Assembly: GCA_011033025.1 (NCBI GenBank)
Contig: WFMF01000053.1
Coordinates: 434,001 to 498,000, forward strand
Reading direction: 5' to 3'
DNA from: Beroe forskalii
Lineage: Eukaryota > Ctenophora > Nuda > Beroida > Beroidae
DNA length: 64,000 nt
Below the pieces are notes generated by a model. The model did not search any database. It was not told the origin of the DNA and saw nothing but the letters and a program-made list of their open reading frames with translations. Of this stretch, positions 84 through 60,645 are shown one piece after another (position 1 is the first letter of the stretch; every line of letters begins with the position of its first letter). The position numbers and the translations under genes were made by a program.

Positions 84-3000
84 TATAATGATTTCTGAAA
101 GCTGTGACGGTCACTCCCTTTCAAGCTGCTCAAAAGAAGATAAACCCGACAACTTTACAAGATTCAAATGGCTCAAATATTATAGCAAGGAGTGAGTTTG
201 AAGACAGGACAGCAAGGAACACGGCAGTACTAACTACTGGTTAATACGACAATATTATTAGATTCTAGTCTCGACCAAGGGCAAGCTGCTGACGAAAAGC
301 CGGCTTCAGTTGATCAGTTGGGTATGAACGTTAACACGACAGTTCAGAGAATGAGGGGACTAACACAAGTGTAAGAAACAGTAAAGATGATCTTCTGACG
401 ATCTTCCGCCTGAAGATGGCTACTGTTGTCGTGTCAGCGATTCTTTCCACATTTTTATGGGCTAGAATCCTAAAACAGACACTAAGGTTTATTTAGATGT
501 GGTAGAAAAACAGGGCAATTTGATACAACTACGATTCTCACAGTAAAGGTAGTAGCACATACATGGCCAAAGGGCAGAGATGGACAATAAAGGTATTTAC
601 ATGCAATCAAATTTTTGCTTTTCTGATAATTTGTCAGTCTACATGGCTATGCACTGTTGGATGAGAATTTATCAGAAAAACAAAATAATGATTCTACGGT
701 ACATATTATGACTCGATAGGTAGGTACAGTCTACAATGTAGACTACAATGTAGACTCTACATATATCACGATTCAAGAAATATACTATATAGCGTGTCAT
801 CATTTTGCAACTAAATATGCGTGTAATACTAATCATAATGATTGGTCAATATTACTCTTTTCTTGCATACGACTATTTGAAATTTATAGTTCAATACAAT
901 TGCAAACATTAAAGAAAACAAAATTTCAAACGATCAACTGAAATTCCGACAGTTGTACCCAATTTAACACCTCTATACTTCTATATTATATCAGCACAAT
1001 ACATAGATTTCACACGTATTGTAACGCTGCGCGGCAACCTGTTGTGCCCACGTGACGTCATCGCGCTGAATTCTATAAACCGCAATAACTCGCGACCTAA
1101 TTGAGATAGAGGCATGGGGATTTCACCATTGTATAACATGCAACGTGAGAAGTGGTAAAATCATAACCATTTTAATTTTCTTAAAAGTCAATTCTATAGT
1201 GAACTACCCCTTTAAACGAATAATTGTCATCCTTTTTAAAAATATAGATCCTATCGAACGAAAGTTATTCATCGTTATAATTCTTATATTCGCAGAATGA
1301 AAAGCCCGTGATTTGGAGGAATCCGTACCCCAACTCCAACTTTTCAATTGAGCCATTGGCACTGGTGTTGGCAGATGAAGATTATGATTTATGCAAGGAG
1401 CTAATGGAATTGTGAGTCCTATCTAACTCCTCTTGTAATATCTAATATTCTATACCTTATCGGACATAATTATCACGGACTTTAGTTTCACGGACCTAAA
1501 ACTTCACGGACATTAATATTCACGCTCGATCCAGCCACTTCAAATTTCAAGAAAACTTCGAAATTATCGGCTCGATTTTTCCCATTTTCTTTCACATTTT
1601 AATGATAATGAAATAGCATTTATTATATACAGACTATTGCGTAATGCGTATAGAGCTATCGGCAGAGCTCGTACAACCTCCACGGTCACTTAAATCCGAA
1701 TGAGAAAGTCTATTGAGGCTTTTACAAACAGCTGCAACCCATGGTATTTTTCACTGATGTAAATTAGGGAGTAATAACATGGTTGCATGGCAGCCTTCAG
1801 TGTTATATCTCCGCCCTAAAATTCCGATTCAAGATGACAAGTAATACTATTACTAAAACTCTATAAATGACAATATCCTAATTTATTCCAGATACTCCAA
1901 AGAGCAAGCGCCGATGGTGATTGAATGTGAAGATGCAGCTGGGCAGCCGCGGCAGCTTAACGTGTGTTTCTGTGTCAAACGCTCAATGGTAGACGGAAAG
2001 CTACGAGGAATACTGAGTGGGCGGGCAGGCGCCCACTGTATCCACTGTGATTGGCAACTGATCGAGTACTATCTCGATGTGCCAAAACATCCTTCACGTG
2101 CAATACCAGTGGTATGTATCAAATTTGATTAATATAACTATATAAAACTTTTCTACGTAATAGATAAATGAATATATAAATCGGAATTAGGAAACTACTT
2201 ATGTATCCCTGACCAAGTCCAATTTTGGGCAATCTGCATGTCCAGGTAACCCTCATTTTCAACAATTGTATAAAATCTTGTTACCCAAAATAAGACAAAA
2301 ATTGGACATAATCTAATTAAGTTCATCGTTTGTTTTCTACTCGCCTGGATTAGTGGGAGTTATTATCTTAGTACATAGAGACATAGATGAAAATTAGACA
2401 CAATGAATAAGGCCTTATATAAAGGCCCAATGCCTTTGTTGTGAGTTAAGTTCTGGTAAGGGTGTCAAAATGCTCAGAGCACCAGAATGCCTACTTTTGA
2501 TATAGCCCTGAGTATAGTTTACCTACTTATCAAGGCAAAATCCTACTTATGCAAATCGCCGATTCGGCGCCTAATGATTTATTAGGCACCGATTCGGCGC
2601 CGATTTTTGTCACCGCTTATAGGCGCCTCTAGGCACCTAAAATTAACATTTTTTAATTTATCGGCGCTTATCGGCGGCTTTGTGGTGCCTATAGGCTCCG
2701 ATTAGCTCCTATACATCGCTTATCGGCGCTTTCCTACCGCTTCTAAGCGGGGACGAAAATCTGTGCAGATCTGCGCCTATGAACTTATGAAAAAGTATAG
2801 GTGCCGATTGCCGAATCGGCGATTTGCGTCAATGGGATTTTACCCTTATATCAACACCCGGTTTCCATCCAGTGATTATATTATATATTTTATAATTGAC
2901 ACGTGGCTTCTTCTTCTGCAACAAATGCAACAGTGCCACTTCTTCTCTTTTCGCCGTGTATACAGAATACAGATACTATATAGTAATAAATCTTTCACAG

Positions 3001-6000
3001 GTACATGAGATGCGCTATGATTGTGCAAAGGCGTCACAGACTCTCGATCAACTGTATATGAAGTACGCCCATGGGAAGTAAGTTTTGTATTAGCTGCGTT
3101 CCCTTATACTCTTATATTCTTTACTAGCAGGCCCGTAGGGCCTGCAAATACACAGCTCACTCGGCGCTGCTACGCAGCACCTCGTTCGCAAAATTCAAAT
3201 CCACCAAATACTTTTTACCGCATCAAAAAATTCCAATCACATCAAAAGTTACGCAGCAACATACTGAAACAGCATTGAACAGAAATGAACGCGCGCGCTC
3301 AATATGTAACCATAGCAACGCGCGCGCATATATCCATACTGCACGTACACGCTTCAAAATGTGTCTACAAAAGGACAAAAAACGTGACTACATACAAAAT
3401 AGTACAGAGGTTGCGAAATTATATTAGAGATAATAAATAATTTATGTAAGCGCGCTTAATATATTTCGGGTGCACGAACTGCATGTCTGTACTGTTTGCC
3501 CTGAAATCAAGAGCTTTTGAAACACTCGGACAATAAAGGCATTAAAGAGCATGGCTTGGAATGTGCTAATGTACGTTAATCTAACGGCACATAGTGATAC
3601 TTTTGCATTTAATACACGAGGCGAATCCGAGTGCCAATTGATGCCCTAATCACCCGAGGCGAAGCCGAGTGTTGATTAGTATACTAATTGGCACGAGCCG
3701 TCAGCTGAGTGCAATTTAGTGCAACTGTATCACTTCTGTGGCGTTAGATTAGCGTATTGTACCACGACCAGTTATACGGTACGTACGTACTCTTATAATA
3801 GAATAATTGCACAACTCAAATTTCAGCCTCTATAAGTCGGCTGCGACCAGGAAGTATTTTACCGATAGACCTCTCACTGTGCTGGACAGTATGACAGTGC
3901 TTCATTCATGGATCAATTGCTGCAGGACCATCGTTGAGCATATGACGAAAGTTGAGTTGTAAGTAATATTTATATAATATACAATGTAAAAGGTTGGGGT
4001 TGGGGTTGGGGTTGGAGTTAGGGTTAGGGTTAGGGTTAGGGTTGGGGTTGGGGTTGGAGTTAGGCGGGTAGGGTAAGGGTTAGGGTTGGGGTTGGGGTTG
4101 GAGTTAGGGTTGGGGTTGGGGTTGGGGTTAGGGTTGGGGTTGGGGTTAGAGTTGGGGTTGGGGTTGGGGTTAGGGTTGGGGTTGGGGTTGGGCTTAGGTT
4201 TGGGGTTTGGGTTAGATTTGGGGTTAGGGTATGGGTTAGCCGGTTAGGGTTTAACTTTAAGTTAGGGTTTGGGTTAACCCTAACTCAAACCTTAATCCAA
4301 ACTCCAACCCTAACCATGACCCAAATGTGGAAGACACACCGTGCAACGAGGGTGTGGGTCAATTTAGGACTGCCTTGATCTTCGGCGCCTATAGGCGCCT
4401 TTACAATTTAGGCCATGAATTTAGGTCATTGGACGATAATTGACTCGGAGCTCAGCTAATAGTAATAAAACTCATCGCCGCCAGTTCAGGACTGTCTTAA
4501 TTCATCGAAAGATGAAGAACCTAGATTACTAGAATCAACCAATATCGGCGCCTATAGGCGCTAATACTTATGCTGAAAACAGCATCGGCGCCTTTAGGCG
4601 ATGAAAAACGTAAGCGCCTATAGGCGGTTGAAAAGCGCCGAAAGCGCCGATAGGCGGTGAAAAGGAGTTTAGGCGCTTTTCGGCGCCTATAGGCGCCGAC
4701 GACCGCTGATAATTTGACAAATGTTTATTATAGGCGCCTATCGGTACCGCTTTAGGCGCCTATAGGCGCCTAAAGCGGTACCGGTCGGCGCCTATTCGGC
4801 GCTTGTCGGCGCCGAATAGGCGGTTTGCATAGATAGGATTTAGCCATCGAATTACTGTATCTGTAATCTGTATTCACGATAGTTTTCTTGTAGCGTATAA
4901 ATAATACTTTTTATAGCGTAGAAGATTTTGAGAAGCTCAATCCAGCGAAGAATCTACCATCTAAGGCCAGAAAAGCAATTGATGACAATGCCAAACGAAT
5001 GGCTGCCCGAATCAAACGCCGAACTGGCATAATTGTTCGTAACATTGGTCATGGAAATACGGGTGGAGCCTCCATATCATCTATATAAGTATATAATATC
5101 TAAATATATAATCAACGGAAAAGTCGTAATGATGACATATTGACATCGAATATGAATTTGAAATGGTCTAAAATTCTCAAAATAATTTAAGACCAACTTA
5201 AAGCATGTATTATAGCGGAATCCAAACATACCTACTAGGCCTCCACCGTGGAGGCCTAGTAGGTATGTTTGGATTCCTGTATGCTTTAAGATGATCTTAA
5301 ATTATTTTGAGAACGACCATCAAATTCATATTCGATGTCAATATGTCATCATTACGACTTTTCCGTTGATTATATATTTAGATATTATATACTTATATAG
5401 ATGATATGGATGTATATTCTCTTTCAGGAAATGAAGCCAAGAAGTTCTTCCAAAACAGTGATAGTATCAGCAATTGTATGAAGAACAACACTTACAGGCC
5501 TATCTTTAAACAACTCCTTGACAAGATGTGCTTGATTCTTACGGTACGTTGTTGAATGGTATTATCAATTTTTGAATTTCTTGGTGATGAGCATCGCACT
5601 TGTATGTGTACACATAGCCGCACATACTTATATACATATAACGTATTATAGTATTATAGTATTATATTCTGCTATCATTATAAATGTAACGTGCTGATAA
5701 GCGTACTAATAAGATCAGAGCATTAAATAGCAACTAGATTGTAGTATTGATCTTTCTTCACTTGACAATTTTATCATGATAAATGAAAATCTTCTTTTAT
5801 TTCATGACATTGAAAATTATTTTCATTTAATTAAGGTTATAAGTTTTACATTATAATTTGAAATTCCAGCTGTTGAACAGCGACGAAAGAATAGACATCA
5901 AAGAATATCAATTTCTGACGAGAGGAGCGCTGATATTCATAACACAACGAATCAAGTTCTTCAGATTCACTCCAACCATCCACACTGTAAGACAACTTAT

Positions 6001-8566
6001 GATCATCGATTAATCACAGGAATTTTGTCTGAAAGCCTTTCTTTGAGGATACTGATAGACGTTTCATAAAATTGACAACTAGTATTATAGAGGCATCCGA
6101 TCATATTCAGATTCTAATTCTAACTCTAATTCTAATTCTAATTCTAATTCTAATTCTAATTCTAATTCTAATTCTAATTCTAATTCTAATTCTAATTCTA
6201 ATTCTAATTCTAATTCTGGTTCTAATTCTAATTCTAATTCTAATTCTAATTCTAATTCTAATTCTAATTCTTATTCTAATTCTTATTCTAATTCTAATTT
6301 TTCTAGATTGATCAGTCCTGTGCGACTTTCTTTTCTGATATTCTGGTATTTTTCAGGTTTTGTTTCATTCATGGCAGTGGATTGAAGAAAACAATTCCCG
6401 GGGTTTGAAAATGCTGTCTGAAGATGGTTTAGAGATGGTCATGGGTAGAGGGAGAAACATTAGAACTTTAGAAAGTTCCAAGCTTTCAGAGGTAATTAGT
6501 GATATCAGAGTTCCCTTCATCTTGGTTTGAGTTGTTGGTTCAACTTTCAAGGGACCATTATAATCGACTAATTTGCCCATGGTGATAAGAAAACTGGAAA
6601 AAATCGTTATTGAAAGGACCCTAAAAATAAAATTTTAAAGATGCGCTTTTATATTGGAAAGAAAAAATCATCGCCATCCTATCCGTTGAAAATATTGGGC
6701 TTGCGGTTGCGGACATTTTTCTATGGCCGACTGGGGGATAAATATAGAAATATATGCAGTAGCTCAGTAGTATAAGTACTTGACAACACTTTTTTGATCT
6801 GTCAGTTGTCACACTGCCACACTTTTTGTCACACTTTTTTGTCACACAAGCCCTGTCACACTGTCACATAAGCCCTGTCACACTCGAATGTCATAGTGAC
6901 AAAAAAGTGTGACAATGTAGCAAAAAAGCAGGCCCGTAATTCCTGGGGGGACACTGATAGGGGAACATAATTGAATTCCCCCTCAGTTTTTTGGTAGATT
7001 ACTGAAAAAGTGCTCAAAATTGGGCACAATCCCACTTATGCAAACCGCCGATGCGGCGCCGATTCGGCGCCGATAAGCGCCGAATCGGTGCCTATATTTT
7101 TTTTGAAAACCCACGGTGGGGCTGGCAATGTGCCGAAATAAATAAAATATAATAAATCCATAAAATTCAAAAACAAGCCACAAGCACATTGAGATGCCAA
7201 TCAAGGCATGTGTTCATAGTACAAAGTAGCCCCATTGCTACTGAAGTAATAAAATAGCACACACATGTAGCACTCAATAACAGAAGACCACGACTTGAAA
7301 CACCCAGGGTTTCGTATGCACGCAAGACGTTGGGCAGTCGGAGTTATTTCCTTCCAGCGCGGGAAGGACGCTGAGACACAGGTGTCGATGCGAAGGCCGG
7401 AGCACTAGCAGTCGCCCGCAAGTTAGATGATAGCGAAGCTGCAGTAGCACTAGCTGATGAGAGTGACGATGGTGGCTGCTGCTTCTCTCGGCTGCACACT
7501 GTCCCGTTCTTGATGTAGTGGTACTGCCCCGGTTCGCTGTTGATCTTCTCCTTGATCTGTGCCACCAGAGCTCTCCTCTGTTCCCGCTCCTCACGGCTCC
7601 TGACAGTAGACACGTACACCTTCTTGAATCTTGTCGTCCCCCTCAACACCCTCGCATTCCTCAACGCCCGATCAGCTGCTGCTTCACTGCTGTTGAGTAG
7701 CACTTTCACTGGACGCTCAACTCCTTCCTTGACTCCCCCTACACGGTAGCAGTCACTTACAGAAGGCTTCGATAAACCGCAACTGACCCTCAGCATATCG
7801 TCCACTTTGCTCTGCAGTGCTTCTTCAGGGCCCTCTCCAAGTCCGAACACCATCAATGAGCGTTTCCTGTCATCCTCCAAAACAGCAGATTTCACAGCAG
7901 CTTTGATGACTCATGACCTGTGTTGAAGCTGCATTTCCTTCACATCCCTGCTTGACTACATCGCTGAAGATCCTGATTTCTGTCTCCACAGTCTTTCGCA
8001 CGGCCTCCACCTGTTCAGTCTTACTCTTCGCAGTAAATAATCTTGGATCTTCAGCAATGTTTTCTGATTCTCAATCTAAAATCTATAGGTTTTTTTCGGT
8101 GCCGATTCGGTGCCTATAGGTGGTACCGCTTTTAGGCGCCTATATTTAATTTTAATATTCTTAATTTTTCGGCGGTCATCGGCGCCGATAAGCGCCTATG
8201 CACCGCCTATCGGCGCTTTCGGCGCCGATTGGGCGCTTATCGGCGCCGAATCGGCGGTTTGCATAAGTGGGATTGTGCCCGAAATTGAATAAAAAACCTA
8301 AATTTTTCAAAACTTTTGTCTACCACTTTTGCTCTTTTGGACTTTTGGATTCTTGGATTTACAAAATTTCCATGTCCCCACCAATTTTTCTTTTCGATTT
8401 TGGTATCGTATGAAAGTATACGGATACTATTGAAACCCTGCTGACCCCCTATACTCACCCATTTTCAGGAAATCTAAGCAAGAATCTCATCAATACGCAT
8501 GAGGTTCTCCAGTTGGAGGCTTCTCATCTCATAAACAGAAACTTCAACAAGAAGAAGGACAAGAAG
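84..8566 (+). CDS. RAG1-like recombinase/transposase core, multi-exon, 5' end outside window
   Basis: Exons read from splice sites and reading frame: 84-191, 269-368 (weak), 1296-1411, 1892-2111, 3001-3077, 3827-3958, 4917-5062, 5428-5543, 5870-5986, 6357-6491 and 8469-8566. Phases join without a stop from 84 to 6491. The protein matches the RAG1/Transib DDE core in order. ESCDGHS in exon 1 matches mouse RAG1 Asp600 (ESCDG). IWRNPYPNS then EPLALVLADED in exon 3 matches RAG1 KPLCLMLADES and the Transib WxNPxPSS block. SMVDGKL in exon 4 carries the second Asp (Asp708), followed by CIHC (zinc Cys727/Cys730). GNEAKKFF in exon 8 resembles the Transib GNTARRFF block. TPTIHT|VLFHSW, split between exons 9 and 10, gives the HxxxxH zinc pair (His937/His942). 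LSEDGLEM in exon 10 carries the Glu (Glu962). Exon 11 (NLSKNLINTHEVL) matches the helix after the Glu. Exon 10 to 11 does not join in phase with the best sites; donor 6499 (GTGATA) or a missed microexon would fix it. The family cuts DNA at paired signals; whether this copy is host or transposon is unknown. Confidence 0.85.
194..1295 (+). other. RAG1-like intron sequence, no gene
   Basis: Apart from the weak exon at 269-368 I see only AT-rich intron. It has a small repeated motif (CAATGTAGACTA) near 730-760 and a hairpin around TTTTCTGATAA near 615-690. The exon at 269-368 is supported only by flanking AG/GT and by phase agreement on both sides. Confidence 0.5.
1457..1570 (+). repeat. End fragment of the TTATCGGACATA MITE family
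   Basis: This begins TTATCGGACATAATTATC and continues with the TTCACGGACCT subterminal repeats seen in the full copy at 15530-15991. It lies in the RAG1-like intron between the LADED exon and the second-Asp exon. The other end is not recognisable here, so the copy is truncated. Confidence 0.6.
2537..2841. mobile_element. GGCGCC-rich foldback element in RAG1-like intron
   Basis: Left end AAAATCCTACTTATGCAAAT and right end GATTTGCGTCAATGGGATTTT are imperfect inverted repeats. Between them are many palindromic units such as GGCGCCTATAGGCGCC and CCGATTCGGCGCC. Related elements occur at 4380-4845, 7013-8288, 12250-12655 and 18603-19008. No coding capacity. Confidence 0.7.
3125..3300 (+). repeat. 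Dispersed repeat starting GCAGGCCCGTAGGGCCTGC
   Basis: This shares the order of blocks with 55190-55345: GGCCTGCAAA, TAGCTCACTC or CAGCTCACTC, CTGC..CA..TTCGCA, and CATCAAAAAATCCAAT. A short related start (AGCAGGCCCGTA) is at 6928. It looks like a SINE or MITE family, and I cannot define its ends. Confidence 0.5.
3991..4310 (+). repeat. Interstitial telomere-like array (TTAGGG/TTGGGG variants)
   Basis: About 320 bp of degenerate hexamers, mostly GTTGGG and GTTAGG, within a RAG1-like intron. Near 4275 the strand sense flips to CCCTAA-type units. Related TTTGGG/TTAGGG tracts occur at 13334-13430, 15411-15490, 19690-19733 and 21055-21186. Confidence 0.85.
4380..4845. repeat. GGCGCC palindrome cluster (foldback family)
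   Basis: A dense run of GGCGCCTATAGGCGCC-type units in the intron before the exon at 4917. The right end, GGCGGTTTGCATAGATAGGAT, resembles the ends of the elements at 2537-2841 and 7013-8288. No open coding region. Confidence 0.65.
5071..5410. mobile_element. 340-bp near-perfect palindrome filling a RAG1-like intron
   Basis: The left arm starts TCCATATCATCTATATAAGT at 5071 and its reverse complement ends at 5410. The centre is CTCCACCGTGGAG near 5246. The intron runs 5063-5427, so only 8 bases at the donor side and 17 at the acceptor side lie outside the palindrome. A MITE or introner-like insertion would explain this. Confidence 0.8.
6105..6303 (+). repeat. (TTCTAA)n hexanucleotide microsatellite
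   Basis: About 33 units of ATTCTA with a few substitutions, in the RAG1-like intron before the catalytic-Glu exon. Confidence 0.95.
7013..8288. mobile_element. 1.28-kb foldback element with captured LINE ORF1 remnant
   Basis: The left end GGGCACAATCCCACTTATGC is matched by the right end GCATAAGTGGGATTGTGCCC as a perfect inverted repeat, continuing inward with CGCCGATTCGGCGCC units on both sides. The interior holds a reverse-oriented LINE ORF1 fragment. It sits in the RAG1-like intron between exons 10 and 11. Confidence 0.75.
7344..8060 (-). pseudogene. LINE ORF1-type fragment, frameshifted
   Basis: A 183-codon frame (7895 down to 7344) contains DRKRSLMVFGLGEG, CYRVGG, RPVKVLL, FKKVYVS and REQRRALVAQIKEK. 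This is the RRM-like/C-terminal signature common in ORF1 proteins of invertebrate non-LTR retrotransposons. The preceding part (8060-7896) reads in another frame, so a frameshift separates them. No ORF2 follows. It lies inside the foldback element, so I read it as a captured retroelement scrap rather than a host gene. Confidence 0.6.
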
Positions 8567-8814: not shown

Positions 8815-11180
8815 AACAGAGAGGTATCCGTTTTCAGGAACGACATCACAAAATCACGTTAAAGAATCACGTTAAATACCATAAGACGTATTTCGAGGAA
8901 TATCATGATAACTCACGTAAACAATGGCAAATGATAAATAAGTTGCTAAATAGAAAAGGTAAAGGTGATACCATGATAACCAAGCTTATAGGACCACAAG
9001 GAAATGTCGTTTCCAACCAAAACGAAATTTCCAATAACTTCAATGACTAGGTATTTCTGCAATATAGCCTCTGATCTTAAGAAAAAATCTGTTCCTCCAG
9101 AATCGCCTCAGTCTGGTACAGACAGTGGTTTCCTTAAATGCCCCGTTAGTAAGACAATACATCTCAACGATGCCGACGCGAGCGAGATACATAGTATCAT
9201 CAAAAACTTTAAGAATAAAGCCACGCGTGACACGAAAATTAGCTCACTCAAGATAGCAAACGAGTTCTATACCTTCACAGACGCTTTGGCAGGCGTAGTC
9301 AACAAATCGTTTCGTGAAGGTATCTTTCCTGATGAGCTAAAAATAGCGAGGGTGACGCCTATTTATAAGGAAGGATCTAAATCGGACGTTAGCAACTACA
9401 GGCCAATCTCATTACTTAGCTCATTTTCCAAAATTTATGAAAAATTAATGCACGTTCGACTCATGGAATTTCTAGATTTTAACAGCTCCCTATTTGAGAT
9501 GCAATATGGTTTCAGACCGGGTAGGTCATGTGAGCATGCTCTGTTAAAAGCACAAGACACGCTTCTAAATTCTTTGAATAATAGGCAAATATCAATTTTA
9601 CTACTTATAGACTTCTCGAAAGCCTTTGATATGGTTGACCATAATATCCTTCTGAGAAAACTGTCCCACTATGGAATAAGAGGCCCGGCCCATGACTGGT
9701 TGAAATCATATCTAAGTCATAGAAAACAGTTTGTATGTGTAAACAACATCGAATCGACCATGGGGGACATAACCTTCGGGGTGCCTCAGGGGTCAATTCT
9801 AGGTCCCTTATTGTTTATTATCTATATTAATGACATCCCAGAAATATCAGCGATGGCTAAGTTTATACTTTACGCAGACGATGCAAATATAATAGTGACA
9901 GCTGATAGCATAGAAGATGCATATAGTGAGCTACTTAGACTAGTCGATCAACTAATTAGATGGGTGCACCTAAATGGCCTTGCACTCAATCTCAAGAAAA
10001 CTAAGTACATGATATTTTCTCGGAGTAAAATAAGCTTACCTGAGCCCTTAATAATTTCAAAAATACCTATAGATAGAATGACAGAAACACGATTTTTAGG
10101 AGTTATAGTGGATGAATCTCTGAATTGGTCACGACACGTCAAAACCATTTTATCAAAAATGTCGAGATACATAGGAATAATGTACAAGATTAAAAAATTC
10201 CTGCCTCTAAAAGCGCGCTTACAGATCTATCACAGTTTTGTGCAATCCCACATAAATTTTTGTTCTCTGGTGTGGGGTTTCAGCTGTAAATCAAATATTG
10301 AGGCAATTTTCTGTAAACAAAAGAAAGGCATGCGCGCCGTAATTCCCGGGTTCATAAGATATTTTTATAAGGATGGAATAACTCCAGGGCATACTAAGGA
10401 ATATTTCAATGAATATAAGATCCTAACGGTACATAATATTGTAGCTCTTAATAATACTATATTGATAATGCATAAGATACGCTATTACCCTGCCCTGGCT
10501 CCGAAGTCGATAATAGAAACTATCTCTGACGACAGTCCCGAAATAGGATCCAACCATGAAGACTGCGGTACGTGGTTAAACTTGTATAACACAACCACCT
10601 ACCGCAACTCTTTGTTTTTTAAGGGTCCCATGCTATACTCTACCCTTAAATTAGTTAATGACCTTACTAAAGAAAAACATGTATATGTAAGATCTTTCAG
10701 GAACAGATTGAAGGCTGCTATATTGGACTGCCAAAATACCGGGGAATCTTCCATATGGGATACGAGTAATTTTGTACTTTATGATTATAAGGGTCTGCGG
10801 TCTGTAGCATCAAAACAAAACACCACTAAAGTTGATTACACTCAGTTTTTCGATTAAATATTACACTACAACTGGCAGTAAAATCTAGAAATTGCCTCGC
10901 TAACAGAAATAGTCTCGCAAAAATTATGGGTATTACACGATTAACCCTGAAGGATCCTTATCTCTGGGGTCAAAAATTGCCAACTTAGTTAGTACAGCAA
11001 GAGCCATTTGTTAGTTTGCATAATCTACCTTTAATTTATACGATTTTTGTCGTCAGCGAACTGCACGCACAGATAATACAGGTCTAGGTCATAGGAAGAA
11101 AACGGATTAAGAAATAAGGCTTAGGCAAGTCAAAATAAGCTGTAAGCTTTCAAAATTTAAATTTTAAATTTTAAATTTTG
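8815..11180 (+). mobile_element. 5'-truncated jockey-like non-LTR retrotransposon
   Basis: The coding remnant begins after the endonuclease region, near 8815. It continues through the reverse transcriptase frame to 10857, then a 3' region ending in an AAATTTTAAATTTT tract near 11145-11180. The start carries a short tandem duplication (AATCACGTTAAA twice, with a stop). It is inserted in the presumed long intron of the RAG1-like gene. Confidence 0.8.
9004..10857 (+). pseudogene. Reverse transcriptase of jockey-like LINE
   Basis: 617 codons cover the whole RT domain. NYRPISLLSSFSK (motif 1), QYGFRPGRSCEHALL, LLIDFSKAFDMVDH (catalytic Asp), GVPQGSILGPLLF and FILYADDANII (YADD catalytic pair) are in order, followed by the thumb and C-terminal region. 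The real upstream frame (KQWQMINKLLNRKG to NEISNNFND) ends at a TAG at 9048. A 4-base insertion (GGTA or equivalent) shifts it into the RT frame, so the given methionine is not the true start. The RT half has no other stops. The endonuclease is missing, so the copy is dead on arrival. Confidence 0.85.
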
Positions 11181-21768: not shown

Positions 21769-24656
21769 CTAAAATTTACCAAAATACCTCCTTCTCCGTT
21801 CATTTTTGCTGACAAAAGCTTTTGCTATACCCTTAATGTTAACTTTATCAGTCAATGACTTATGAGCATGAAGAATCATGAAATGGTTTAAGTGTTCCTG
21901 AGTAATTCTATTTCGCAGATACGTCTTTATTCTCCGTAGAGCTGAAAAGCTACGCTCTGCCGTCGCATTTGATAGAGGAATAGTTAGATAGAGTCTGAAT
22001 AATTTATGCAGTTCATCATAGACACATTTCAGGCCAGGTTGTTGATTGAATATGTCCATAATTGTTCTAAGCGAAGTTACCCTCTTAACACCAGGGTCTG
22101 CTGATGAGATGACTCTTTGAAGCATATCAAGATTTTTCTTGAGTTGAGGCACGTCGATGTCTCCACTGAGCATTTCTGCAAGATTGTTCCTAGTAATGTC
22201 AAATTCTTCATTATTAGCAGCATTTATGACAAGATCCTCAATAGAAATCAAAAAGTTCAACGTTTTCTGATCAAATCGACGATTGATTTCAGTTATGAGA
22301 AGGTCTATGATTTCAAAAAAGTTTATTCTATACATTTGCTCCGGAGATTCCCAGCTACTACCACATCCTGCATCAGAGACAAAATAAGCATTGAGTTTTT
22401 TGGGAATCCTTCTCTTTCGAGGTAAAACGGGTCCCTCCAAATCAAGTTCTTCACACCTTAATTTAGCCTCCTCGAATAAGTCTGTGAAATGTTTTTCTGT
22501 TCGTAACTCACTGAGATACTTGATAAGACTATCCTTAAGAACTCTTACCGTGCCTGCATCTAACTGTTTGGATTGGAGCTGCTTAGCCATCTCTTCAGCT
22601 GGTGCAAAAACTTTCATGCTCATGAAAAGCCCGAAGACTGTTGAAAACTTCTCGAGGGTCGCTAGAAGTCCAGGAGCCATCTTGGCCCCTTCAGAAGTTC
22701 CCCCATTATCCCGTATGTCAACTAACGTGTCCATTAGAACTTCATAGTTGAGAAGCACACTAGTCAGTGAAGCTGTTCTGCAAGTCCATCGTGTTGGGCA
22801 GAGCGGCCGGAGACTTGCAGTGGCAGAAAGTTGACCAGAACTCTCAGCAGAACTCTGCAAGTCTTTGAACACAGCCAATCTGAAGAAAAGTTATATAATT
22901 GTTAGTTGTTATGATTGTTAGTTGTTATAATTGCGTTACAACTGTTATAATGTCGATACCATCATAAAAGCACAATATGATGTATTGCCAGTTCGGCATA
23001 TATCTAAGTCTTATATCATATTATCATTATATAGTCGTATATACATAGAGTATACGAAGGTTTACCATAATATCATACCCATACAATAACCATTGAAAAA
23101 TAAGGCTGTATTTAGCACACGTTATAATCCAAGGCAGACTTCTCATACCTCTTCGGGGAAGCTCTGACAACAGTACAAATGCTTTGAACTGTAGTAAAAG
23201 TCTGTGAAATGACTTCGTTGACTGATGCAGCTTCCTGCAATACCAGATTGAGGTTGTGTGAAAGACAGTGTGTCGGAAGAGCTTTGGGGTTCGTCTCCTG
23301 TATCTTGGCTGCCACACCATTCTGCTTTCCTTGCAGAACTGATGCTCCATCGTATGTCTGCCCTCTGAAGAATGAAATGTTATGTTGATAACAGTTGATT
23401 GCAGGCTTGTTCACTATCACTCTCGTGAAGTTGAACTATACAGGTTTCTGTTAAAGGGACACACTTCGATTGAAGGCCAGATGGGAGTTCACCACATATG
23501 TCTTAGTTTATGATGGGTTAAAAGGAAGTTAAAAGGAACCCCTCGCTCGGATTCACTTACGAAGAAAGAATTATAAAAAAACGCTTATGATATAGGTTTC
23601 TACAAAATTTTGATAGAGGTTGTTGAATACGCGAAAAAATTCGTGAAAATACGACCGAACGACCGATTTAAGCAATATTCAAAAATTGTAAGAAAAATAC
23701 GGCAGTTTTTACCAAAAAATACGTATAATATTTTTTGAAATATTTCTTGAAACGAAAGTATCCAAACATTCAACAACTCAACAATAGCTGGGAAGGTCTC
23801 TGGATATAATATTGACTCCTCGCCTCCATAATTGTGCGAGGGTATTGTAATCAGACGGCAATAATTTGAAGAAGTTGCATCATAATTTGCTCTTACCTCA
23901 AGCAAGACATATCAAGGTCCAGGTCTCCAAGTGCTCCCTCAATCGCTGTCACGATACTGTCCGCATCACACTTGCTGAGAGCATGCAGGCCTACTACGTC
24001 TTCATGCACTGTATAATCGTCATCTACCCACCGTATGATTAGAGACATCTGCTCAACCCCTGAAGACAAAATTGTGTCATTATATACCTCATCGGACATA
24101 ACATGGCCGCTAGATGTCCATAATTATCTCCTCCCATTAAATTATGTCCGACCATAAAATGTTCGTCCAATGCCCATCTAATATATACATATATCATCTG
24201 CCCAAATTATGTCCCCTGATGCATCCTTAGCCATTATGGGGCCTATCAAATGAATCACTATCATATTATACAGTAAGATTTATGCACTTGAACTGAAAAT
24301 ATTGGGCTTCACAACGGCTTTAGCGCAAAAGTTGTTAAATAAAACACTAACATACCGGTTATATCACTGGTCTCATCCACAACGATCGAAAACAGCTTTG
24401 CATCCTTGATCTTTCCGACGATCCCAGTGAGGACATCGTCATACATCAGTCTGACCAGCTCAGAGTTGATCTGGTGAGAAATGTAGTCCCCCTTGTTGAG
24501 ATATGACTTCATCCCCTCCACTGAGGAAAGCGAGAGGATTTGTCGTAGGTTTCCCTCTGCTTCGTCAGAATTCCGGGCGGCAATGTTCTGTCTTGCCAGC
24601 AGCCTCAGGTACTTAATCTGTTCCAGCAAACAGTTCCTACGTCGAGTTCTGGTCTC
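21769..24656 (-). CDS. hAT-superfamily (ZMYM1/DUF4371-like) transposase-derived protein, four exons visible
   Basis: Exons on the minus strand are 24656-24356, 24059-23897, 23364-23149 and 22879-21769. All junctions keep phase (ITG|VEQ, CLR|GQTYDGA, PKR|LAVFKD). The protein has a DUF4371/RNase H-like hAT core: FSIVVDETSDITG (first catalytic Asp), RGQTYDGASVLQG (second Asp), THCLSHNLNLVL, then the C-terminal dimerisation region LPLSNATAERSFSALRR-like (IPLSNATAERSFSALRR, with the catalytic Glu). About 600 residues are visible with no stops. An N-terminal zinc finger (TTF/MYM) would be expected upstream of 24656, where I find no clear exon. The introns are unusual for a young DNA transposon and suggest either a domesticated gene or an intron-bearing hAT such as those annotated as ZMYM1-like. 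hAT termini were not identified around it. Confidence 0.85.
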
Positions 24657-43655: not shown

Positions 43656-43660
43656 TTAAT

Positions 43661-45145
43661 ACAATACAATATACAATACAATACAATAGCTATCAATACA
43701 ATACAATACAATACAATACAATACAATACAATACAATATACAACCTATTACAATACAATACAATACAATACAATACAATACACAATACAATACAATACAA
43801 TACAATACAATACAATACACAATACAATACAATACAATACAATATACAATACAATACAGCCTATTACTAATATACAATACAATACAATACAATACAATAC
43901 AATACAATACAATACACCTGTACAATACAATACAATACAATACAATACAATACAATACAATACAATACAATACACAATACAATACAATACAATACAACAA
44001 TACAACCTATACAATTAATACAATACAATACAATACAATACAATACAATGTACAATACAATATACAATATACAATACAATACAATACAATACAATATACA
44101 ATACAATACAATACAATACAATACAATACAATACAATACAATATACAATACAATACAATACAATACAATACAATACAATATACAATACAATACAATACAA
44201 TACAATACAATACAATACAATATACAATACAATACAATACAATACAATACAATACAATACAATACAATACAATACAATACAATACAATACAATACAATAC
44301 AAATACAATACAATATACAATACAATATACAATACAATACAATACAATACAATACAATACAATACAATACAATATACAATATACAATACAATACAATACA
44401 CAATACAATACAATACAATACAATACAATACAATACAATACAATACAATACAATACAATACAATACAATACAATACAATACAATACAATACAATACAATA
44501 CAATACAATACAATACAAATACAATACAATACAATACAATACAATACAAATACAATACAATACAATACAATACAATACAATACAATACAATACAATACAA
44601 TACAATACAATACAATACAATACAATACAATACAATACAATACAATACAATACAATACAATACAATACAATACAATACAATACAATACAATACAATACAA
44701 TACAATACAATACAATACAATACAATACAATACAATACAATACAATACAATACAATACAATACAATACAATACAATACAATACAATACAATACATTTACA
44801 ATACAATACAATACAATACAATACAATACAATACAATACAATACAATACAATACAATACAATACAATACAATACAATACAATACAATACAATACAATACA
44901 ATACAATACAATACAATACAATACAATACAATACAATACAATACAATACAATACAATACAATACAATACAATACAATACAATACAATACAATACAATACA
45001 ATATACAATACAATACAATACAATACAATACAATACAATACAATACAATACAATACAATACAATACAATACAATACAATACAATACAATACAATACAATA
45101 CAATACAATACAATACAATACAATACAATACAATACAATACATTG
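43661..45145. repeat. (AATAC)n pentanucleotide satellite, about 1.5 kb
   Basis: Nearly pure AATAC units. The right half, 44400-45145, is the most homogeneous; the left half has two-base slips (AATATAC) and short insertions. The long ORFs it yields in several frames (YCIVL or TIQYN repeats) are artefacts of a 5-bp unit that lacks stops. Confidence 0.98.
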
Positions 45146-46654: not shown

Positions 46655-48915
46655 CCGGGAGACTTCACAGTTCCTTCACGGACCCTTCACGGTTCCTTCA
46701 CGGACCCTTCAAGTTCACGGTTCCTTGACGGGCCCTTCACGGTTCCTTGACGGACCCTTCACGGTTCCTTGACAGGACCTTCCCGGTTCCTTGACGGACC
46801 CTTCACGGTTCCTTGACGGGACCTTCCCGGTTCCTTGACGGACCCTTCACGTTTACTTTACGGACCTTTCACGGTTCCTTGACGGACGCTTCACGTTTCC
46901 TTTACGGACCCTTCACGGTTCCTTGACGGACCTTTCACGGTTCCTTGACGGACCTTTCACGGTTCCTTGACGGACCTTTCACGGTTCCTTGACGGACCTT
47001 TCACGGTTCCTTTACGGACGTTTCACGGATCCTCGACGGACACTTCACAGTTACTTGACGGACGCTTGCTTCATGGTTCCTTTACGGACCCTTCACTGTT
47101 CCTTGACGGACGCTTCACGGTAACTTGACGGACGTTTCACGGTTCCTTGACGGACCTTTCACAGTTCCTTCACGGTTCCTTGACGGACGCTTCACAGTTC
47201 CTTCACGGACCCTTCAAGTTCACGGTTCCTTGACGGGCCCTTCACGATTCAATAACGGACCATTCACGGTTCCTTGACAGACGGGTAACGATTCCTTGAC
47301 GGACCCTTCACGGTTCCTTGACGGACGCTTCACGGTTACTTTACGGACCTTTCACGGTTCCTTGACGGACGCTTCACGGTTACTTTACGGACCTTTCACG
47401 GTTCCTTGACGTACCCTTCACGTTTCCTTTACGGACCCTTCACGGTTCCTTGACGGACCTTTCACGGTTCCTTTACGGACGTTTCACGGTTCCTTGACGT
47501 ACGCTTCACGGTTACTTTACGGACCTTTCACGGTTCCTTGACGTACCCTTCACGTTTCCTTTACGGACCTTTCACGGTTCCTTGACGTACCCTTCACGTT
47601 TCCTTTACGGAACCTTCACGGTTCCTTGACGGACGCTTCACGGTAACTTGACGGACGTTTCACGGTTCCTTGACGGACCTTTCACAGTTCCTTCACGGTT
47701 CCTTGACGGACGCTTCACGGTTCCTTGACGGACCTTTCACAGTTACTTGACAGACCCTACACGGTTCCTGGACGGACCTTTCACGGCCCCTTGACGGACC
47801 CTTCACGGTTCCTTTATGAACCCTTCACGGTTCCTTTACGAACCCTTCACGGTTCCTTCACGGTTCCCTTGACGGACCCTTCACGGTTCCTTGACGGACG
47901 CTTCACGGTTCATTGACGGACCTTTCACGGTTCCTTGACGGACCTTTCACGGTTCCTTGTCGGACGCTTCACGGTACCTTGACCGCCGGTTCCCTGACGA
48001 ACGATTCACGGTTCATTGACGGACGCTTCACGGTTCTTTGACGGACGGTTAACAGTTCCTTGACGGACGCTTCACGGTTTCTTTACAGACCCTTCACGGT
48101 TCCTTGACAGACCCTTCATGGTTCCTTGACGGACCCTTCATGGTTCCTTGACGGACGGTTAACAGTTCCTTGACGGACGCTTCACAGTCCCTTGACGGAC
48201 CCTTCACGGTTCCTTGACAGACCCTTCACGGTTCCTTTACGAACCCTTCACGGTTCCTTTACGGACCCTTCACGGTTCCCTTGACGGACCCTTCACGGTT
48301 CCTTGACGGACCCTTCACGGTTCCTTTACGGACCCATCAGGGTTCCTTAACGGACCCTCCACGGTTCCTTGACGGACCTTTCACGGTTCCTTGTCGGACG
48401 CTTCACGGTACCTTGACCGCCGGTTCCCTGACGAACGATTCACGGTTTCTTTACAGACGGTTAACGGTTCCTTGACGGACCCTTCATGGTTCCTCGACGG
48501 ACGCTTCACGGTTCCTTGACAGACCCTTCACGGTTCCTTGACGGACGCTTCACGGTTCCTTGACAGACCCTTCACGGTTCCTTTACGAACCCTTCACGGT
48601 TCCTTTGACGGACCCTTCACGGTTCCTTGACGGACCCTTCACGGTTCCTTTACGGACCCATCAGGGTTCCTTAACGGACCCTCCACGGTTCCTTGACGGA
48701 CCTTTCACGGTTCATTGACGGACGCTTCACGGTTCATTGACGGACGCTTCACGGTTCCTTTACGGACCCTTCACGGTTCCTTGGCAGACGCTTCACGGTT
48801 CCTTGACGGACTCTTCACGGTTCCTTGATGGGCTCTTAACGATTCCATGACGGACCCTTCACGGTTCCTTGACGGACGCTTCACGGTTTCTTGACGGACC
48901 CTTCACAGTTCCTTA
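46655..48915 (+). repeat. 22-bp minisatellite TTCACGGTTCCTTGACGGACC, about 2.25 kb
   Basis: About 100 tandem units, mainly 22 bp, some 17-18 bp, diverged and with higher-order blocks: a stretch near 47990 and one near 48430 share TTGACCGCCGGTTCCCTGAC. ORFs in it (RPFTVPLTDPSRF) are repeat artefacts. Confidence 0.95.
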
Positions 48916-56647: not shown

Positions 56648-59462
56648 TTAAATATCAAATGCTATTTTGAATAAATACGTTTTAAGAGTTGATTTGAAAG
56701 ATTCTATGGAGGAACAAGTTTTAAGTTCTAAAGGTAAACAGTTCCATAGTTTAGGACCAGACTTCTGGAAAGATCTTTCACCCATATGAGATAAAACTCT
56801 AGGTTCATATAGGGAGATTGAGTGATTAAAATCTACATACTTAAACATTGATTCCAAATATTCTGGAGCAAAACCATTCAAACATTTGTATACTATTAGG
56901 AGAATTTTAAAATGAATACGAAATTGTACAGGAAGCCAATGTAACTCTTTCAGTGTATCTCCAAGATGATCATGTTTATATAGTCCAACAACAGCTTTTG
57001 CAGCTGCATTTTGAATGAGCTGTAGTTGTTTGATAAGTTGTTCATTAACACCAAAGTATAATGCATTACAATAGTCTAGTCTGCATGCAATGATGCTGTT
57101 AACCAATAGTTTCATCTGATCTGTAGTGAAAATAAAACGCTTCTTGACAACATTTCTGATGAGGCGAAAGCAGTCCTTTTTTAGAGCTAAAATGTGAGTC
57201 TTGAAGGAGAGATTGCTGTCAAGTGTGATTCCAAGGTTTCTGGCACTTGAGACAAATCTCACACATACATTTCCAGGTAAGATTATACCCCCAATGTTAA
57301 TCTGATTCAATATGTTTTGGGGGCCAAAAACAATGACTTGAGTCTTTCCAGGGTTAAGTTGTAAAAAGAAGCTTATCATCCAATTATGAATGGTCTTAAA
57401 ACAGTTTAGTATTCTAATAGTAAGAGTGTCTGCTTGTTCACTAGGCTTAAAGCTTTTATAGACTTGATGATCATCTGCATAGCCGTGAATTGTGAATCCA
57501 CTCTTTTTTATACAACCATAAAGGGATCGTATGTAGATATTGAACAAAATAGGACCCAATACAGAGCCTTAAGGAACTCCAAACTGAAGAGTGATTGATT
57601 CACTCACAACATGGCCAAGCCTTGTTCTCTGAGTTCTGCTTGTCAAGAAACTCTTGAACCACTTCAGTGCAACCCCTCGGATTTTAATCTCCTTGCTCAA
57701 AATTTCAAGTAGCTTACTATGATCAACTGTGTCAAATGCTGCAGAGGTCAAGCATCATAAGAACAGTTGCCGATTTTTGATCACAGGCTATAAGCAAATC
57801 ATTGGTAACTTTAAGCAGAATGGTTTCAGTGGAATGGTTCTTTTTATATGCTGATTGCTGAGAGATGTTCATGTTGTTCTTATCAAGATGATCATTCAGT
57901 CTACTAAGTACTACACGCTCTATGAGTTTTCCAAGAAAAGACAGATTTGATATTGGGCGATAATTCTTCAACTCCTCAGGATCAAGCTTGATATCCTTGA
58001 GAGTGGGGATTATGTCAGCAATTTTCAACCCTTCTATTGATCCAGTTGATAGAGATTGGTTAACTAGCTTACAGAACACTGGTATGAGTAGATCAATATT
58101 TTCTTCAACAATAGCTTCTGGTAAAAAGTCTGTTGGTGCACACTTAATGCCACTTTCCTTGATTATACCCTTTAGCTCTTCTTCAGTGCATGGAGCAAAC
58201 TCATTCAAGTAATCACTTGTGAAAACTGGTTCTATCTTAGTGAGATCATCATTACTGATGGTTGGTAGTGATTCACGAATTTTGGTTATTTTCTCATTGA
58301 AATAACTATTGAACTTCTCACTTAGTTGCACAACATCTGAATCTGAGGGCAGCATATTTTCCTGCTTTCTATCCAGCTCCTTGTTCACCACATTATAAAC
58401 TGCTTTTAGATTGCCTTTGTTCTTTTCCAGCAACTCTCTATAGTATTGCTTCTTTTTCAAATTTGCCATTAATGTTGTTTCAGAGCGTATTTCTTCAAAA
58501 AGTGTTCTATGATACTCACTTTTGCTCTTTTTCTTCTCAGCTTTCCTCCTTAGTTTGCGCTGGTTCTTATATTCTGAATCAAACCAAGGTGCATGTGCCA
58601 CAAATGATATTGTTTTCTGAGTGAGTGGTGCATGCTGATCAAGTAAACTGTTCATGGCTTTGAAAAAGTTGTTACATGAATCACTGAATTGGGAGTTCAT
58701 CTCAAAGCTTGAAAGTGACTGAGACATATCAGAGGATAGCATATTTAGGTCTACACTTCTTAGGTTTCTGGTAGTTATGATCTTTGGTTTTTTAAGACAT
58801 ATGTAAAATTCTTTGGTTGAACAAAGGATAGGATAGTGGTCACTCAATAGAAAATCATTTTTGATGCACATGGAAGCATGCCCTAAGAGATTACTATTGT
58901 CAAACAAAAGATCAATTGTCCCTTCATTGATGTGAGTAGGTTTATCAACTATTTGTTTGAATCCATACGAGTGAGCCATCTGCTCAAGTTCAGAAGAATA
59001 GTCATTAATTGATTCCATGTGTATGTTAAAGTCTCCACCAATCAATATGTAATCATACCGCATGCTAGCCTCCCCAAGCAGATTTTCTAGTTCTTCAAAA
59101 AACTTTTTTGTGACTGGTCCTGTTCTGTAGACTGAAATAAACAGTATCTTCATATCAGCTGCACATGTTATCAAGGCACAAACATGTTCAAATGTGGTGA
59201 CCCCCTGAATTTTAAGAATTATTGGATTATACTGAAGGCTGGATTTCAACAGTAGTGCAGCACCACCTCCTTTTGTTTCAGATCGATGCTGATGTATAAT
59301 AGCATAACCATATGACTTGATATCAGCAGTGATTGCATTTGAGTGGTCAGTGAGCCAGGTTTCTGTAAGGAAAGCAATGTCAACAGCTTCATCCTGAAGC
59401 AAACACATAGTATCTTCACATTTATTGTTGATACTGCGTGCATTCCACACAAGGATTTTCAA
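56648..59462 (-). pseudogene. LINE ORF2: endonuclease-reverse transcriptase, broken
   Basis: The apurinic-type endonuclease begins at ILVWNARSIN, with TETWLTD (catalytic Glu), GGDFNIH and LLSDHYPI (terminal His) in order. The RT follows: NYRPISNLSFLGK, AYKKNHSTETILL, FDTVDH, GPILFNIYI and HGYADDHQVY (YADD). Two lesions break it. A frameshift near 57748, in the block around the first RT Asp, and a TAA at 57568-57570, where the family has Gln in GVPQG. The downstream 303 codons are otherwise open. About 935 codons in total, near the normal size. Confidence 0.9.
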
Positions 59463-59491
59463 GTGAGACTGGGTAGCCAGTTGAGGTTTCG

Positions 59492-60645
59492 CTAGTTTTT
59501 TGAGTAGTATGACAAGGAGGCTTTTAATTTTTCCTGTCTTGAACGATAAGAGGGGCAGCTGCTTGAAAAGGCAGGGTGCTTTAGATCATCACCAGTTTTT
59601 CCAGCTTTTGAACAATTACAACACTTATATACTGATTCAACATTTGGGGTATCCTTGTGAGTGCAGTTACGAGTTTCATGATCACCAGAAGAACATATTC
59701 CACAACAAGTTGATTGAGAACACTCCATAGCGTAGTGGCCAAATCCTTGACACTTATGACAACGCTTGATGTACAGTTGGTCATAAACAGGACATGACAA
59801 GAGTCCATAGAACAGCCTATTATTGTTATTCTTTATAGCATGTCTGATATCATCACTCACTTTGATAATTGCTTGTTTCATATTTTCATTTGACTTTAAA
59901 GGTTTCACAGACAGAATTTCAAACACAGAGGAGTTATTTTTCAGACAGTCTCCCAAGTATGGGTTTTGGCTGAGGAGAGTGTTATATATGGTAGCAGCAT
60001 GGTCCTTATTGAGCTCCTTGGGGATCCCTACCACTGAAATAGTGGGATTCTTCTCCTTGGGCTCTTTAAGGAGGTTAGGTGTAATACCAGAAGTGAATAG
60101 TTTTTCCTTGAGATCATCCCTTGACTTTTGGTTAGGACAAACAATAACAGTATCACCATTTTTGTTAACAAACTTCTTGTGAACCTGAATACCATTTTTT
60201 ATCACAGTCTGCTCTAAAGATTGCCCATCAACACTGGCATCCTTAGCTACAACAAGAAGGGATTTGACTCTATTTTTATCTAGCCAAACATTTCCTGCTG
60301 ATTGTTCAGCTGCTAAATTTGACTGTGCTGGGCTGCCAGGGTTTTGGTTTATTGTTGATGATAGAGTTGGTGGAGACATGGACACTGGAGCTATTAAACC
60401 AGAAGAATTATTGGAAGAACATTGTAAGACAGGTTCAACTTGATGGCTGGGTGACTTTGTTATGACCTCTTTGAGCAACTTTTTAATTTCAGTAACATCA
60501 TCTGCCAAATTAGTAACACGATTATCAATGATATTCACACGGTCATTAGTGTCACATGTAACCTGATTCTCGTGTTTAGTGAGGCAAAGGTCACAAACAA
60601 AAACAAAGTTACCAAATCTTTTATTTTTACTTTTGTTTGTTGCAT
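59492..60645 (-). CDS. LINE ORF1 (nucleic-acid binding), N-terminus truncated
   Basis: Open from an ATG at 60645, earlier than the GTG at 60538. The extra residues read FVCDLCLTKHE, which looks like the last half of a PHD-type finger, so the rest was lost with the 5' end. Then a short coiled coil (VTNLADDVTEIKKLLKEV), an RRM-like block (RVKSLLVVAKDAS), and zinc knuckles CHKCQGFGHYAMEC and CGICSSGDHETRNC plus a third Cys-rich motif. ORF1 proteins coat the element RNA. The order of domains agrees with the truncated ORF1 at 34466, so both belong to the same broad group. Confidence 0.8.

Follow-up and report, generated by a model that had tools for sequence, protein, structure and literature searches.

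A spliced gene of the RAG1/Transib recombinase superfamily, probably of Transib-type descent, in the ctenophore Beroe forskalii

Background

The recombinase RAG1 is thought to descend from transposons of the Transib type. Ctenophores, which branch off at or close to the root of the animal tree and have been proposed as the sister group of all other animals, also carry relatives of these elements. Six Transib-like proteins have been reported from ctenophores, those named being MleTransib_3931 of Mnemiopsis leidyi and PbaTransib_8175 of Pleurobrachia bachei (Tao et al. 2022, PMC9435367), so that a ctenophore Transib as such is not new. The Subgroup I Transib elements described in the same paper keep the alpha11-alpha12 region and have asymmetric TIRs and a CTT1 tail (PMC9435367). 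RAGL genes are placed in protostomes and several cnidarians by PMC7204232, and the sea urchin RAGL genes are described as domesticated (PMC9885083). The matching passages of the Beroe ovata genome paper (PMC11184263) and of PMC8075586 hold nothing on the gene described here, and no Beroe Transib or RAG1-like gene is reported among the matches listed in the open-licence literature.

The window, by which we mean the whole 64,000-nucleotide stretch analysed here, is G000:C614:434001-498000 of the Beroe forskalii genome, in a 216-Mb assembly of 1134 contigs. Positions given without a contig name are counted from its first base, negative ones lying upstream. A first-pass annotation had read in it a RAG1-like gene, intermediate in sequence between RAG1 and Transib and likely functional or only recently lost. 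We were interested in the exon structure of this gene, in the family to which it belongs and in whether it behaves as a mobile element, a host gene or a relic.

Results

A spliced gene of 13 exons

A composite of relatives from the same genome was aligned with contig C614 by a purpose-written splice-aware aligner which allows only GT/GC-AG introns. This yielded 13 credible exons over C614:430366-442566 (-3634 to 8566; Table 1), with the start of the gene upstream of the window. The alignment scored 897.4 on the 14 kb of C614:429501-443500; a longer query, run on 19 kb, scored 912.6. Controls on the 14-kb stretch reached 65.0-80.6 (eight shuffled proteins), 78.3 (the reversed protein) and 69.9 (the minus strand). 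The gene is real, and its likeness to the relatives is far above chance. The spliced gene is identical to the composite at 233/547 positions, a count that includes a 24-nt microexon offered by the aligner at 5239-5262, which we judge spurious because it sits in the middle of a palindrome some 330 bp long. This palindrome, which lies in an intron of the gene, is MITE-like.

Splice donors are strong in five of the 12 introns (GTACGT, GTGAG or GTAAG types: GTACGTCA, GTGAGTCC, GTAAGTTT, GTACGTTG and GTAAGACA), of the GTAA/GTAT type in three, and weak in the other four (GTTTATGT, GTGGTATG, GTTGTAAG and GTGGAGCC); because the aligner admits only GT/GC-AG, boundaries at weak donors may be some bases off. 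By our own reading of the alignments, 11 of the 12 introns fall where a relative reads on continuously. N-terminal exons upstream of -3634 are not claimed (the likeness there is weak, 59/175 identical, with two frame breaks), and two aligner exons 3' of 8566 were rejected, the second falling within a reverse transcriptase frame.

Table 1. Exons and associated features of the window gene (window positions)
Feature	Position	Strand	Evidence
Exon with first catalytic Asp (KDGLDGAGNQ; LNIKDGLDGAGNQIHIKEK)	-829..-657	+	spliced alignment; paralog match
Coding exon 5 (WRNPYPNS..EPLALVLADED)	1296..1411	+	spliced alignment; AG before, GTGAGTCC after; paralog match C614:435308-435418, E 9.8e-6
Coding exon 6: second catalytic Asp (SMVDGKL, Asp codon 1992-1994), zinc CIHC (from 2037)	1892..2108	+	spliced alignment; at least 12 other same-genome matches
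Coding exon 7 (VHEMRYDCAKASQTLDQLYMKYAHG)	3001..3077	+	spliced alignment; donor GTAAGTTT
Coding exon 8 (SMTVLHSWINCC)	3827..3955	+	spliced alignment; weak donor GTTGTAAG
Coding exon 9 (end = GIIVRNIGHGNTG)	4917..5062	+	spliced alignment; weak donor GTGGAGCC
Fold-back palindrome, ~330 bp, intronic	5077..5410		sequence and its own reverse complement almost identical
Coding exon 10 (GNEAKKFF)	5428..5543	+	spliced alignment
Coding exon 11 (FFRFTPTIHT; first zinc His codon 5981-5983)	5870..5986	+	donor GTAAGACA; aligned to FFRFNITIHQ of the C300 copy
Coding exon 12 (VLFHSW, second zinc His codon 6366-6368; LSEDGLEM, catalytic Glu codon 6420-6422)	6357..6491	+	spliced alignment; 3' part loses frame relative to the C300 copy
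Exon 13, homologue of the C-terminal exon of the C300 copy (GNLSKNLINTHEVLQLEASHLINRNFNKKKDKK), out of phase with exon 12	8469..8566	+	donor GTAAGATT

All eight motifs on which the first-pass annotation relied are present in the translations, HTVLFH only across the splice 5986/6357, and seven of them lie in exons recovered here (exons 5, 6, 10, 11 and 12). The second Asp, the CxxC, the HxxxxH and the Glu, which it had placed in spliced exons at RAG1-like spacing, were likewise recovered by the spliced alignment. Matches to RGS2 (PDB, E 0.0084) and to Pfam NAD1 (E 0.11) came from a rough concatenation of motifs with a wrong first exon and false junctions, and are chance matches.

The first catalytic Asp lies upstream of the window

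The eighth motif, ESCDGHS at 97, had been taken for the site of RAG1 Asp600; it is intronic, and the first catalytic Asp is found in the exon at -829..-657, outside the window. A paralog frame of 182 aa matches C614:433176-433352 (-824 to -648) with 42% identity and E 2.6e-10, and the one TGA in this match lies past the donor of the exon in the gene model. The Asp segment of the relatives scores 139 on this exon and 18 on 84-209; its best score in 1-1289, 27, is not at ESCDGHS and compares with a mean of 27.1 and a maximum of 31.0 for 20 shuffles scored over that interval. For the HzTransib Asp segment the scores are 41 (upstream exon) and 33 (1-1289, where shuffles reach up to 42), and the profile comparison with human RAG1 also pairs Asp600 with the upstream exon. 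The contrary evidence, which gives the first-pass impression some basis, is that RAG1's own Asp segment finds in 1-1289 an alignment that ends at ESCDGHS and scores 38 (20 shuffles, maximum 34), against 27 on the upstream exon. Because the relatives do not share ESCDGHS, we take this likeness to be chance, and ESCDGHS was rejected as the Asp600 site.

The C-terminal frame

Exons 1-12, when joined, give 522 codons with no stop; by the last few of these codons the frame has already parted from that of the copy on contig C300. The reading frame is not intact over the whole gene, and in this the first-pass annotation, which had it open through its last exon, was mistaken: exons 12 and 13 are out of phase, and reading across their junction meets a stop after two codons of exon 13. 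The length difference between exon 12 and the C300 copy, which lies in the 3' part of the exon, is not a multiple of three, and the frame is lost after the catalytic Glu. Exon 13 is a genuine homologue of the C-terminal exon of that copy. Such an out-of-frame C-terminus would mean that the protein now ends after the catalytic Glu helix, or that the gene was recently lost, or that the assembly is wrong there.

Placement between Transib and RAG1

Both zinc pairs (CxxC and HxxxxH) and all three acidic residues of the catalytic site are present in the order of RAG1 and Transib, and the signature DGAGNQ..IKEK / M[IV]DGK / GN.A..FF aligns with HzTransib. Of the local likenesses pointed out in the first-pass annotation, GNEAKKFF falls in the GNxAxxFF motif that is aligned with HzTransib, and EPLALVLADED in a longer stretch, PNSxxSxEPLALVLADED, that resembles PNSELCCKPLCLMLADES of RAG1.

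We compared with the PDB a profile of three family sequences, one of them a partial overlap. HzTransib (6pqn) was the best of the 15 PDB sequences listed (E 1.5e-13), followed at a distance by mouse RAG1 (1.8e-4) and lancelet RAG1L (6b40, 1e-3), in a comparison set that holds neither Subgroup I Transib nor any other ctenophore sequence. For scale, a search with the 418-residue core of human RAG1 reaches lancelet RAG1L at 3.3e-67 and HzTransib at 0.0051, and HzTransib as a lone query finds no RAG1 at E up to 1. With the 182-aa paralog frame as query, 12 of the 13 PDB sequences listed up to E 10 were RAG1 (best E 0.0087), and one of three family members matched Pfam RAG1 weakly (E 0.007). A profile comparison with human RAG1 brought both Asp, CTLC, HKTLAH and SE into register in order over 447 columns, at 22% identity and with marginal significance (E 0.019, probability 2.4).

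In the window gene the Asp-Asp spacing is 104 and the Asp-Glu spacing 255; the corresponding values are 99 and 260 for the composite of relatives and 99 and 207 for HzTransib, while the residue numbers of RAG1 correspond to 108 and 254. From the first Cys to the His of the LH motif there are 75 residues in the window gene versus 34 in HzTransib.

Because the profile prefers HzTransib, while lancelet RAG1L matches RAG1 at 3.3e-67, we assign the family to the Transib type rather than to RAG1L, the core similarity that marks a real RAG1L contrasting with the 1.8e-4 at which this family reaches RAG1. By these comparisons it lies between Transib and RAG1, nearer Transib. What stands of the first-pass reading is a spliced, intermediate recombinase gene of the RAG1/Transib superfamily; its choice of RAG1-like as the family does not stand, and the profile search that it had proposed matches both families, with Transib ranking first.

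Pfam RAG2 gave no match in the genome and none in the control genomes either, so that this result is uninformative. No Kelch domain was found in the 10 of 22 window ORFs (at least 130 aa) that were scanned, a scan which short exons would escape. A single pattern for a CTT1-like Cys/His motif had no match in the 5.6 and 6.5 kb read downstream of the two loci, the window gene and the C300 copy; the apparent C-terminus of the C300 copy has no such motif, the window gene being modelled as far as 8566. Among prokaryote and viral contigs, 67 and 36 pattern matches yielded no confirmed relative. Residues 17-83 of the spliced window protein weakly match Pfam DUF1280 (E 0.0019, below cut-off), a possible link between DUF1280 and Transib.

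Relatives in the same genome and constraint on the gene

When the best candidates of a genome search were scored, exon 6 had at least 13 matches in the assembly (itself and 12 others, 44-58% identical), and exons 9-10 matched only themselves and C300. The 182-aa paralog frame has 27 matches, and the family thus extends to sequence upstream of the window. A frame-tolerant aligner showed every one of the 15 related copies examined to be interrupted by one or more stops or frame breaks, although the frame penalty was lenient, so that a lone break at the end of a short copy is doubtful. Ten of the 15 end at reference residue 330-331; only C300 reaches the C-terminus, and it is broken in its own 5' half.

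The window gene is much more divergent than these broken relatives (about 41% identity to them), yet it has no stop. In neutral simulations (300 per level), the runs free of stops made up 34% at 0.02 substitutions per site, 12% at 0.04 and 3.7% at 0.06, and there were none at 0.1. Set against these simulations, the absence of stops despite such divergence indicates that most of the divergence of the window gene was not neutral. A stop-free frame fits constraint during a mobile phase and constraint as a host gene alike.

Shortened Transib pieces are amplified beside tandem-repeat arrays at G000:C469 686-966 kb and C447 25-35 kb, and at G000:C447:26267-30527 a tandem array of roughly 43-bp units starts right where a Transib piece ends. 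These pieces, together with the cut of 10 of 15 copies at the same residue, suggest that satellite or segmental duplication, rather than transposition, has spread them. A 2.1-kb element was considered for the multi-copy pieces of C469 and C447 and rejected: seven of the eight C469 copies displayed share sequence beyond its edge, and no element end is shown.

Mobility and surroundings

Simple matching, which eroded or distant ends can escape, turned up no TIRs paired with a matching 5-bp duplication, either in the flanks of the window gene (12.5 kb on the 5' side, 17.4 kb on the 3' side) or around C300. The best CAC-type heptamer pair of the window gene has 8/18 following bases alike and no matching duplication, and that of C300 has 6/18. 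The window gene thus appears to be a single copy without TIRs. A strong inverted pair of 93 bp, 91% alike, flanks it at C614:417196-417287 and 453733-453825, 36 kb apart.

The surroundings of the gene are transposon-rich. At 8992-10857 (+), 56648-57568 (-), 57732-59585 (-) and 21769-22890 (-) lie frames for reverse transcriptase, one of which has an endonuclease domain, and a hAT dimerisation domain. A large AATAC satellite (290 copies) and then a 22-bp satellite (103 copies) lie at 43658-45142 and 46663-48914.

Elsewhere in the assembly, contig C1134, which carries COX1, reads with code 4; its first 6 kb have 18.1% GC and carry their larger reading frames on one strand. The AGA positions of this COX1 that are read as Arg fall at sites which we take to be conserved Arg. 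The matching text of PMC6991124 gives three Beroe forskalii mitogenomes a mean GC of 17.3%, code 4 and one-directional transcription.

Discussion

The reading that we consider probable is that of a single-copy, intron-rich ctenophore gene which derives from a Transib-type DDE transposase and is long-resident, possibly domesticated and perhaps recently lost. The ancestral enzyme, to judge from the superfamily, would have worked as Transib and RAG1 do, binding two transposon ends as a pair, nicking them and completing the cut by way of a hairpin in a DDE active site of the two-metal RNase H type. The locus would then have ceased moving long ago and gained introns, and may have been under selection for much of its history, as a host gene or a candidate for domestication. 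Against this reading count the splice donors, strong in only five of the 12 introns, the small size of the three-sequence profile, the marginal comparison with RAG1 and the strong inverted pair that flanks the gene. With no stop in 522 codons, the earlier suggestion of a functional or recently lost gene is possible for the window gene, though with the C-terminal frame lost it may simply be a dead copy.

That last reading is a serious contender, if somewhat behind, and it overlaps with the one we prefer. Under it the locus would be an ordinary dead Transib copy which acquired introns, or gaps resembling them, without ever having served the host. The breakage of all 15 relatives read, the loss of the C-terminal frame and the transposon-rich neighbourhood are as expected of such a copy; the stop-free codons at about 41% identity to the relatives, and the 12 introns of which 11 interrupt sequence that a relative reads continuously, speak against it.

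A bolder form of the preferred reading is that ctenophores underwent a RAG-type domestication of their own, independent of the vertebrate and echinoderm ones, and kept its product as a many-exon host gene; from the present sequence we regard this as doubtful. Somewhat less credit is due to the proposal that the gene is intact and active and that the loss of frame beyond the Glu exon reflects faulty assembly or an individual variant. The whole model upstream is open, and exon 13 is homologous and ends in a good donor, as this proposal would have it, but the length difference in exon 12 is no simple homopolymer slip. A true RAGL gene, inherited vertically in ctenophores from a RAG1L-RAG2L transposon, is improbable: its Asp-Glu spacing near that of RAG1 and unlike that of HzTransib, its RAG1-like LADED stretch and the weak Pfam RAG1 match are outweighed by the better profile match to Transib, by the gulf between lancelet RAG1L and this family in likeness to RAG1, by the absence of the CTT1-like motif in the sequence read downstream of both loci and, for what silent controls allow, by the lack of a RAG2 match.

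A long-resident gene of Transib-type descent would matter on two counts. Its family, which matches both Transib and RAG1 and combines RAG1-like spacing with a Transib-like active-site context, should be useful to root the history of RAG1, and the intron-rich copy, if host-resident, would be a candidate for an independent domestication.

Among the described systems, MleTransib_3931 and PbaTransib_8175 share with the window gene the ctenophore host and the Transib type, a likeness drawn from their descriptions, their kinship and subgroup being outside the sequence comparison. The Asp-Glu spacing of the window gene is compatible with a retained alpha11-alpha12 region such as Subgroup I Transib is described as keeping; the asymmetric TIRs and the CTT1 tail of that description were not found in the flanks and the downstream sequence searched. 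Vertebrate RAG1 has the same order of two Asp, CxxC, HxxxxH and Glu, nearly the same Asp-Glu spacing (254, against 255 here) and the PNS..PL.L.LADE stretch, but the identity of 22% is of marginal significance, and the partner RAG2 was not found with a Pfam search whose controls were also empty. Lancelet RAG1L belongs to the same superfamily as the window family (E 1e-3), yet is far closer to RAG1 (3.3e-67). HzTransib differs in its Asp-Glu spacing (207 against 255) and is about 23% identical, but it is the best solved match, with DGAxNQ, MIDGK, CxxC, GNxAxxFF, HxxxxH and SE all aligned to the ctenophore gene.
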